IMG/VR virus record: IMGVR_UViG_3300025810_000112
Coordinates: 1-20,977 of that record
Strand: one strand, 5' to 3'
DNA length: 20,977 nucleotides
Origin: a virus
Below are positions 1,027 through 6,753 of the stretch, piece after piece (position 1 is the first letter of the stretch; every line of letters starts with the position of its first letter). Under the pieces are notes generated by a model. That model did not search any database. It saw only the letters and a list, made by a program, of their open reading frames with translations, and was not told the DNA's origin. The position numbers were made by a program, and so were the translations under genes.

Positions 1027-2008
1027 GTTATTAGATTTATTTTCTGGTATTGGTGGTTTTAGTTTAGCAGCTGATAAGTTTGGCATTGAGACTATTGCCT
1101 TTGTAGAAAAAGAACCTTTCTGCCAAAAAGTCTTGAAAAAACATTGGAACGATGTTCCGATTATTGATGATATAAGAAAAATAAAAGGAGAAGACTATGA
1201 TTCAGCAACGATTGTTTCCGGAGGATTCCCCTGCCAACCCTTCTCGGTCGCAGGCAAACGCAAAGGACAAGATGACGATAGATACCTCTGGGATGAAACT
1301 ATTAGAGTTGTTGCCGAGTGTAAACCGAGGTGGTTTATTGGAGAAAATGTTGACGGACTTGTTAACATCCAAAACGGCATGGTACTCCGACAGGTGCAAG
1401 ATGACCTGGAAAAAGAGGGTTTCCAAGTCCAATGTCTTGTTATTCCAGCTTCAGGCATCGGTGCTTGGCACCAAAGGAAAAGAGTCTGGATTGTGGGCCA
1501 CTCCCAACACAATGGATCATCTACCACCAAGGAGCAAAGAGGGAACACTCAAACTTCAACAAGGTCACAGAAAAGGGAGAACTCGTCCCTCCAATCTGAG
1601 GGAACAAGTAGATCCAGAAACGATGGCAATGTATCCAACACCATCGGCGAGTTGTCAGATGGATGTAGTAGCACCACCAGACACAGTAAATCAGAACTCA
1701 AAGGGATGGTCAGTGACGAGGCTAAAAACTGGAACAAAGTTCGGAGCGAAACTGAACGATGTGATCAACAAACTAGATCACGAGGGGATGTATCCACCTC
1801 CAATGGCGAGGGACAAGTCAGTTCCATCAGTAGCCCTCAAGGACAACGTACATGGTGGCAAACTGAGTCCAAACTTCGTGGAGTTCCTAATGGGGTATCC
1901 TATGAATTACACAAAGATAGAGTCAACAGAATCAAAGCACTCGGTAACTCCATAGTACCACAAATCGCTGAACAATTATTTAAGAGTATAATTTATGCAG
2001 AACAGTAA
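1013..2008 (+). CDS. DNA (cytosine-5) methyltransferase
   Basis: A 331-residue C5-methyltransferase, which transfers methyl groups from S-adenosylmethionine to cytosine, in phages often to evade host restriction. Visible motifs: I, DLFSGIGGFS (residues 8-17, cofactor binding); IV, GGFPCQPFS with catalytic Cys74; VI, ENV with Glu111; VIII, QRKRVWIVG with Arg155/Arg157; X, ALGNSIVPQIAEQL from about 309. Between motif VIII and the end, roughly residues 165-295 are rich in Ser, Thr, Arg, Gln and Asn with almost no hydrophobic core, unlike a normal target-recognition domain; this stretch lies within a second long ORF (1197-1955). I prefer ATG 1013, directly before the conserved core; a TTG at 989 adds eight basic residues. 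The 3' end overlaps terL by 14 bases. No restriction endonuclease neighbour is seen, so it reads as an orphan methyltransferase. Confidence 0.93.
   Translation: MVKHKLLDLFSGIGGFSLAADKFGIETIAFVEKEPFCQKVLKKHWNDVPIIDDIRKIKGEDYDSATIVSGGFPCQPFSVAGKRKGQDDDRYLWDETIRVVAECKPRWFIGENVDGLVNIQNGMVLRQVQDDLEKEGFQVQCLVIPASGIGAWHQRKRVWIVGHSQHNGSSTTKEQRGNTQTSTRSQKRENSSLQSEGTSRSRNDGNVSNTIGELSDGCSSTTRHSKSELKGMVSDEAKNWNKVRSETERCDQQTRSRGDVSTSNGEGQVSSISSPQGQRTWWQTESKLRGVPNGVSYELHKDRVNRIKALGNSIVPQIAEQLFKSIIYAEQ
1197..1955 (+). CDS. Nested 252-aa ORF inside the methyltransferase gene
   Basis: A 252-codon frame wholly inside the methyltransferase gene in another forward frame. Its ATG has a near-ideal ribosome binding site, AAGGAG at 1185-1190 with a 6-base spacer. 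The product looks like a folded protein: SPANPSRSQANAKDK near the N-terminus, TIDTSGMKLLELL, RCKMTWKKRVSKSNVLLFQL (about 66-85), SGLWATPN, MYPTPSASCQ, MYPPPMARDK, and a C-terminal block GGKLSPNFVEFLMGYPMNYT. I recall similar sequences (SPAN..., TSG..CLE/LLEL, W..TRC.LTWK, PTP.A.D, L.P.WVEWLMG.P.GWT) overlapping methyltransferase genes in many phages and metagenomes, but cannot check this here. The function is unknown; a methyltransferase partner, specificity factor or anti-restriction protein are possibilities only. Over the same DNA the methyltransferase frame is low in complexity, suggesting this frame carries the selective constraint. Confidence 0.7.
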   Translation: MIQQRLFPEDSPANPSRSQANAKDKMTIDTSGMKLLELLPSVNRGGLLEKMLTDLLTSKTAWYSDRCKMTWKKRVSKSNVLLFQLQASVLGTKGKESGLWATPNTMDHLPPRSKEGTLKLQQGHRKGRTRPSNLREQVDPETMAMYPTPSASCQMDVVAPPDTVNQNSKGWSVTRLKTGTKFGAKLNDVINKLDHEGMYPPPMARDKSVPSVALKDNVHGGKLSPNFVEFLMGYPMNYTKIESTESKHSVTP

Positions 2009-5194: not shown

Positions 5195-6753
5195 TGGCAA
5201 AACTAAACGCTCAACAACTAAAAAGAAAATACGATTTAAGTAATAGTCATAAGGATAATTGGAGATCAATTTACGAAGATGCATACCGCTATGCTTTACC
5301 TATGAGAAACCTCTACGATGGGTACTACGAGTCCAATACACCAGGTCAAGATAAGATGGCGAGAGTGTTTGACTCTACTGCTATAGATAGTACGCAAAAA
5401 TTTGCAAATAAATTACAGAGTGGTTTATTCCCACCTGCTACTCAGTGGTGTCGTCTAGTGCCTGGTTCTGAGATACCGAAAGAAAGGCAAATAGAAACGC
5501 AACAGATTTTAGATGGCTATAACAACAGAATGTTCGATATAATGCGACAATCTAATTTTGACCAAGCTATGGGCGAATTTCTTCTTGAACTCAGCATTGG
5601 CAGTGCGATCATGCTGATCCAACCTGGAGACGAAGTGACTCCGATTCGTTATACTGCTGTACCGACATTCTTAGTTACCTTTGAGGAAGGTCCATTCGGC
5701 ACTGTTGATAAAGTCTATAGAAGAATGAAAAAACCTTACGGAGTATTAGATCAAGAATTTCCAGATGTAAAAATACCCCAAGATATGAAGAACAGTTATC
5801 AAGGTCGAGAAAGCGAGATGGTTGAGCTGATCGAGGGTACTTACTACGACAAGGATACAGGTAAATATCATTATCAGATTGTTGATTATAATGGAAAGCA
5901 TGAGCTTGTTTATAGAGAGTTAAAATCATTTCCTTGGGTGGTAGCACGTTACATGAAAGCTGCTAACGAAAGATATGGTCGAGGACCTGTACTTACTGCC
6001 TTACCAGATATTAAAACATTGAACAGAGTATTAGAACTTACACTTAAAAATGCTTCACTAACTATTGCAGGAGTCTACACCGCAGTAGATTCTGGAGTTT
6101 TGAATCCTGGCGCAATAAACCTAATTCCTGGTGCGATCATACCTGTCAACAGTAACGGAGGTCCTAGAGGAGCTGACCTACAACCATTACCAAGAAGTGG
6201 TGACCCTCAGTTATCTCAGATTGTGGCGAATGACTTACGGATGAATATTAAGAAAATTATGTTAGACGAATCTTTGCCACCAGATACTATGTCAGCTCGA
6301 ACTGCACTTGAGGTTGCCGAGAGAATGAAACAACTATCGCAAAACTTAGGAGCTGCGTTTGGTCGATTGATTAATGAGACTATGTATCCTGTAGTAAGAA
6401 GAACTCTAGAAGTTATGGATCAACTCGGTATTATCCAATTACCACTGAAGGTAAACGGACTACAAGTTAAGGTACAGCCGATTGGTGAACTTGCTATGGC
6501 GAGCAATATGACGAAAGTAAATCAAGTAATGCAATACGCACAGATAGCTAGTTCGTTAGGACCAACAGGCCAGATGACTATTAAGGTAGAACAAATTGCC
6601 GACTACATTGCGGATGCTATGGGAATACCTGCGGATATTAGAACTACTTACGAAGAGAGAATGCAGATGCAACAAGTTATGGCGGAGCAAGCTCAGATGA
6701 TGGCTCAACAGCAACAAGCTCAGCAAGCACCACCACCACAGGAAGAACAGTAA
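5194..6753 (+). CDS. Portal / head-tail connector protein (T7 gp8-like)
   Basis: A 519-residue portal protein, close in length to T7 gp8 (536). Portals form the dodecameric ring at one capsid vertex through which DNA enters and leaves and to which the tail attaches. Family signs: NWRSIYEDAYRYALPMRN (residues 22-39), ARVFDSTAIDSTQKFANKLQ (56-75) and SGLFPPATQWCRL (76-88), the usual N-terminal connector signature, and later RTALEVAERMKQLSQNLGAA in the crown-proximal region. The last 35 residues are Gln/Met/Ala/Pro-rich (QAQMMAQQQQAQQAPPP), a low-complexity tail common in this family. It starts on the previous stop (TAATG). Confidence 0.95.
   Translation: MAKLNAQQLKRKYDLSNSHKDNWRSIYEDAYRYALPMRNLYDGYYESNTPGQDKMARVFDSTAIDSTQKFANKLQSGLFPPATQWCRLVPGSEIPKERQIETQQILDGYNNRMFDIMRQSNFDQAMGEFLLELSIGSAIMLIQPGDEVTPIRYTAVPTFLVTFEEGPFGTVDKVYRRMKKPYGVLDQEFPDVKIPQDMKNSYQGRESEMVELIEGTYYDKDTGKYHYQIVDYNGKHELVYRELKSFPWVVARYMKAANERYGRGPVLTALPDIKTLNRVLELTLKNASLTIAGVYTAVDSGVLNPGAINLIPGAIIPVNSNGGPRGADLQPLPRSGDPQLSQIVANDLRMNIKKIMLDESLPPDTMSARTALEVAERMKQLSQNLGAAFGRLINETMYPVVRRTLEVMDQLGIIQLPLKVNGLQVKVQPIGELAMASNMTKVNQVMQYAQIASSLGPTGQMTIKVEQIADYIADAMGIPADIRTTYEERMQMQQVMAEQAQMMAQQQQAQQAPPPQEEQ

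Follow-up and report, generated by a model that had tools for sequence, protein, structure and literature searches.

Does a 252-codon reading frame that lies entirely inside a phage cytosine methyltransferase gene encode a protein of its own, and what would that protein do? The window analyzed here is a stretch of 20,977 nucleotides (positions 1 to 20,977 of IMG/VR virus record IMGVR_UViG_3300025810_000112). Its terminase large subunit has 67% DNA identity over ~1 kb to that of Methylophilales phage MEP301, and the virus is apparently a marine tailed phage. The methyltransferase gene is located between the terminase small- and large-subunit genes; it and the features within it are on the plus strand. 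We call its 331 aa product alpha, the C5-cytosine methyltransferase catalytic subunit (1013–2008; PF00145, 4.9e-56), and the 252 aa product of the nested frame beta (1197–1955; PHROG_1008, 3e-23). Our reading is that alpha and beta, encoded by the same DNA segment, are the two subunits of a heterodimeric C5 methyltransferase of the M.EcoHK31I type, with beta as the specificity subunit. We put the probability of this reading at about 0.86.

The surroundings are compact. The end of alpha overlaps the ATG of the terminase large subunit at 1995 (overlap 1995–2008), so alpha, beta and the terminase form one tightly overlapping run. A 91-aa ORF (687–962) that lies between the gene for the terminase small subunit and that for the methyltransferase encodes an integrase arm DNA-binding domain (PF13356, 1.9e-15) on its own, without a catalytic domain.

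As the initial annotation described, beta occupies another forward frame, +1 relative to alpha, and runs uninterrupted from an ATG at 1197 to a stop at 1953–1955, with the Shine-Dalgarno sequence AAGGAG (1185–1190) 6 nt upstream of the ATG. In a 100% identical locus, the longest +1 run is 256 codons from stop to stop. Shuffling synonymous codons there 1000 times gave longest +1 runs that averaged 93 codons and never exceeded 205, and 7.7 stops were expected in the stretch. Relatives of the nested protein were collected as 588 IMG/VR stretches with that protein as query; as a less biased sample, 79 loci were fetched with alpha as the sole query. In the combined set, which includes those 79, a +1 frame matching beta is open across the matched region in 159 of 159 viral loci and the relative frame is constant. 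Insertions that enlarge beta to more than 500 codons keep both frames open. Synonymous permutation of alpha predicts a mean of 9.7 stops per nested stretch, and none is present in any of 69 non-redundant loci (each p<0.01). As a control, 80 single-chain phage C5 methyltransferases retrieved with M.HhaI as query had longest +1 runs with a median of 58 and a maximum of 150 codons. The initial annotation had named two results that would undo the nested gene, a lack of phage homologs and stop codons in this frame in close relatives whose methyltransferase is intact; neither was found.

The start site and N-terminus of beta are also conserved. A Shine-Dalgarno match of at least 5 nt precedes the nested start in 54 of 63 loci (13.6 expected), and its exact position varies among lineages. 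Constraint on alpha alone yields about 27 bits of apparent similarity to beta, and real loci were therefore scored against synonymous shuffles of alpha. The beta N-terminus reached a median of 62 bits in real loci versus 27 bits in the shuffles, and the real score was above all 100 alpha shuffles in 55 of 71 distant bacterial loci. The portion of +1-frame similarity that alpha imposes by itself is what speaks for the nested frame as a functionless by-product of codon bias and a conserved methyltransferase. We consider this extremely improbable, because stop avoidance, Shine-Dalgarno conservation and the phasing of substitutions (below) all exceed the controls. The nested frame is a real gene, and both frames are coding.

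Selection changes frame along the DNA. We compared 28 independent pairs of related loci and sorted their differences by alpha codon position. Upstream of beta and over motifs IV–VIII, 59–62% of differences fall at alpha position 3 (62% over IV–VIII), and alpha constraint dominates in the part of beta that overlaps these motifs. Position 1 of alpha codons corresponds to position 3 of beta codons; it takes 54% of differences in the segments of beta that follow motif VIII, here called cassettes, and 64% in motif IX. Over motif X, 61% are at alpha position 3 again. Both switches are significant by chi-square (p ~5e-46 for the first, ~5e-30 for the last). Single-chain methyltransferase controls have 65% of differences at position 3 in both halves, with no frame switch. 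The excess at position 1 over the cassettes and motif IX thus marks beta as the mainly selected frame between motifs VIII and X.

The motifs of a C5 methyltransferase are divided between the two frames. Alpha carries motifs I–VIII and X. In the window these include motif I (DLFSGIGG, AdoMet binding; 1034–1057), motif IV (PCQPFS, with the PCQ and the catalytic Cys; 1229–1246) and motif VI (ENV; 1343–1351), all at invariant columns of our alignment A2, motif VIII (QRKRVWIV; 1472–1495), identified in the same alignment, and motif X (ALGNSIVPQIAEQL; 1937–1978), which lies at invariant columns and aligns with the C-terminal motif X region of M.HhaI. The target-recognition domain (TRD) region and motif IX are absent from this chain; motif IX sits in the +1 frame. 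Between motifs VIII and X, alpha is a low-complexity sequence rich in Ser, Thr and Arg. In the AlphaFold (AF2) model of alpha, most of residues 1–166 and about 302–330 are modeled with confidence, pLDDT is <50 for 167–298, and the top Foldseek match is M.HhaI. The segment between VIII and X is probably a merely readable linker to motif X.

Beta lacks catalytic motifs and has the single motif that alpha misses. Its C-terminal end is GGKLSPNFVEFLMGYPMNYT followed by a short tail. The C-terminal element LSPNFVEFLMGYPMNYT singled out by the initial annotation is present and corresponds to C5 methyltransferase motif IX (GKLSPNFVEFLMGYPMNYT; 1857–1913), in which KLSPNFVEFLMGYPMNY resembles KLHPRECARVMGYPDSY of M.HhaI (residues 272–289). 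When the beta profile is compared with a profile of canonical C5 methyltransferases, the best local match is exactly motif IX; the match is short (17–18 columns) and weak over the whole profiles (P-value 0.013), and reaches 3e-5 when restricted to their ends.

Between motifs VIII and IX, beta proteins have 1–8 segments each (median 44 aa), every one opening like MYPTP or LWATP, which makes a tandem array of TRD-size cassettes. With boundaries defined by a simple pattern and clustering at 55% identity, 69 proteins yield 59 cassette clusters, many of which recur at differing positions with differing neighbors. The window beta has three cassettes, of types 0-1-36. The first (LWATPNTMD...DPETMA; 1491–1628) is the commonest type, seen 35 times and in 33 of these as the first cassette. 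The second (MYPTPSASCQMD...LDHEG; 1629–1787) belongs to a type found at positions 1–4 in other beta proteins, and the third (MYPPPMARDKSV...; 1788–1856) is the last before motif IX. Multispecific C5 methyltransferases of Bacillus phages (the SPbeta, phi3T and rho11 group) likewise have several tandem cassettes of ~40–50 aa between motifs VIII and IX and serve in anti-restriction. The cassettes of beta match those tandem TRDs in position, size and shuffling, and are predicted to act as TRDs and recognize DNA. Unlike those enzymes, which are single chains in one frame, the present system has its cassettes on a separate nested subunit, so that no one polypeptide holds the whole enzyme and each cassette must remain open in two frames.

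Beta could instead be an independent protein, for example an anti-restriction protein or a regulator acting on alpha or on transcription, with no more than an overlap of genes linking it to the methyltransferase. Its fold is not predictable: AF2 of beta alone has low confidence (pLDDT 56, pTM 0.26), the model has no structural match in the PDB, sequence searches of the PDB, NCBIfam and PADLOC found nothing, and no Pfam family matched. The poor model counts against our reading, and the lack of a predicted fold and of a Pfam family would suit a protein of another kind. Against this stand the presence in beta of motif IX, the placement of the variable array exactly between VIII and IX, as for TRDs, the ability of motif X to move into the beta frame (below), and the loci themselves, among which no free-standing beta without a methyltransferase was recognized in those examined. 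Taken together, these make an independent protein very unlikely. The roles put forward in the initial annotation fare accordingly: specificity or helper subunit gains support from motif IX and the cassettes, and for an anti-restriction protein or a regulator we found no support beyond the likely anti-restriction use of the enzyme.

The variant loci bear on a further alternative. In seven loci (L305 and six from IMG/VR: L342, L347, L355, L387, L394 and L401), motif IX and then motif X are in the beta frame and alpha stops soon after motif VIII, so the beta frame stands where a C5 methyltransferase would have its C-terminal half. In two of them, L355 and L387, the beta ATG overlaps the start region of alpha, and a single Shine-Dalgarno site might serve both frames. 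A programmed +1 ribosomal frameshift after motif VIII would yield a single-chain methyltransferase, with the upstream part of the nested frame not separately translated. Motif IX does lie in the +1 frame after motif VIII, and in the seven loci motif X does too, so one shift gives the canonical order there; in two further loci, L340 and L328, both frames are shifted by what looks like a single-base indel, so that one ORF holds the N-terminal half together with motif IX. A frameshift nonetheless leaves the upstream part of beta unaccounted for. Before any site where a shift would be useful, the nested frame already runs open for ~90–100 codons (in the segment upstream of motif VIII alone, no stop was observed in 63 loci, with 5.2 expected), a Shine-Dalgarno site and start are conserved where it begins, and its N-terminal sequence is conserved beyond alpha constraint. 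The common layout, which includes the window, would also need a second, backward shift to reach motif X. We regard a frameshift as very unlikely.

The two-subunit reading has precedents. M.EaeI and M.EcoHK31I are two-polypeptide C5 methyltransferases of YGGCCR restriction-modification systems. According to work by Lee, Kam and Shaw in 1995, an alternative frame within the gene of the large EcoHK31I polypeptide reportedly encodes the small one, and activity is said to require both. At this locus, too, the small subunit lies inside the large one in another frame. In M.EcoHK31I, motifs I–VIII and X are on the large polypeptide and motif IX is on the small one (PMC3404938), the same division as between alpha and beta. 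The predicted TRD of M.EcoHK31I was assigned to the larger subunit (PMC3404938), whereas we place recognition on beta, a difference that counts against our reading. Also unlike M.EcoHK31I, the present pairs occur in phages and prophages, the window has no recognized endonuclease gene, and beta carries 1–8 interchangeable cassettes. M.AquI is another natural two-polypeptide C5 methyltransferase, split within the variable region (PMC3404938). The seven loci above resemble the M.AquI type in having IX and X on the second polypeptide, but their two frames overlap across most of alpha. The window differs further from M.AquI: motif X is on alpha, beta is fully nested, and IX and X are not together on the second polypeptide.

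In the mechanism we propose, alpha would bind AdoMet and contribute the catalytic cysteine, supplying core motifs I–VIII and the C-terminal motif X. Beta would be translated in the +1 frame from its own Shine-Dalgarno site and ATG and would bind alpha, completing the small domain with motif IX, and its cassette array would set the methylated sequence or sequences. We propose a physical complex of alpha and beta, activity only with both subunits present, and specificity set by beta. No restriction-endonuclease gene was recognized in the 21-kb record (small ORFs scanned in part) and alpha lies between the terminase subunits; the phage enzyme is therefore likely an orphan anti-restriction methyltransferase.

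A broader proposal, to which we give slightly better than even odds, is that split multispecific cytosine methyltransferases occur phage-wide, with a library of exchangeable cassettes in one frame whose DNA is a linker in the other. They would be retargeted by dual-frame cassette swaps, and the frame of motif X would move between the genes. How overlapping genes arise can be tested with this pair, because selection switches cleanly between frames and a variant layout exists. That the TRD-IX segment was displaced into another frame long ago seems more likely than de novo overprinting of the whole of beta, because this segment carries the C5 methyltransferase family's own motif IX.

The initial annotation also held that the overlapping gene is widespread, and the searches bear this out. 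The beta profile matches phages of Paenibacillus larvae, Pseudomonas, Lacticaseibacillus and Bordetella, gene 58 of E. coli phage N15, a Paenibacillus polymyxa plasmid and E. coli prophages; relatives of N15 gene 58 in the latter have the +1 beta frame. Matched bacterial contigs come from Bacillota, Bacteroidota, Alpha-, Gamma- and Deltaproteobacteria, Spirochaetota, Acidobacteriota, Planctomycetota and others. Homologs are always in +1 within a C5 methyltransferase, the exceptions being a few loci where an indel is evident or the gene layout has changed. One match, on a Lokiarchaeota chromosome, adjoins masked bases and may be contamination. Neighbors in the few bacterial loci scanned are prophage-like or mobile (DUF1376, Lin1244_N, DnaC/IstB-like, D12 methylase, transposase). 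In Bacillota, phrog_1008 is present in 3 of 299 genomes, a low and patchy frequency as expected for prophage cargo. Few fully nested gene pairs known to us are as broadly distributed as this one, which reaches phages and prophages of Bacillota, Bacteroidota, Proteobacteria, Spirochaetes and others.

The description of this gene as little-described holds in part. The frame-nested two-subunit kind of C5 methyltransferase is already known from a few restriction-modification enzymes, so with M.EcoHK31I as precedent the kind is not wholly undescribed. What appears to be new is its reach across phages and prophages, together with the array of cassettes coded in two frames and the motif-X variant: a search of the open-access literature found no description of a phage-wide nested methyltransferase gene or of the other two. 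Beta proteins are already grouped by the PHROG_1008 and phrog_31772 profiles, both named 'DNA methyltransferase', a name that suits the overlapping alpha and not beta. The pair stays hidden because annotation keeps a single frame or gives beta this name. By implication, many phage C5 methyltransferases would look inactive if only the annotated ORF were expressed and the nested start had been lost (e.g. by codon optimization). The pair also offers a natural two-part methyltransferase with modular specificity.

Existing records and single loci show further irregularities. Paenibacillus phage records label both ORFs as methyltransferases. In KT997847.1 the public annotation splits the methyltransferase: CDS26 ('putative cytosine-specific methyltransferase') corresponds to the beta frame, and the recorded alpha seems to be frameshifted. 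In three loci the alpha linker is interrupted by a single in-frame stop while beta is intact (L140, 3558–3562; L252, 3152–3156; L276, 4053–4057), which would sever motif X from the catalytic core. These three, and the indel loci L328 and L340, could be sequencing errors, decay or real variants. One contig (L007) has a second, partial alpha-like methyltransferase frame (6372–6746) about 2.5 kb downstream of the first.
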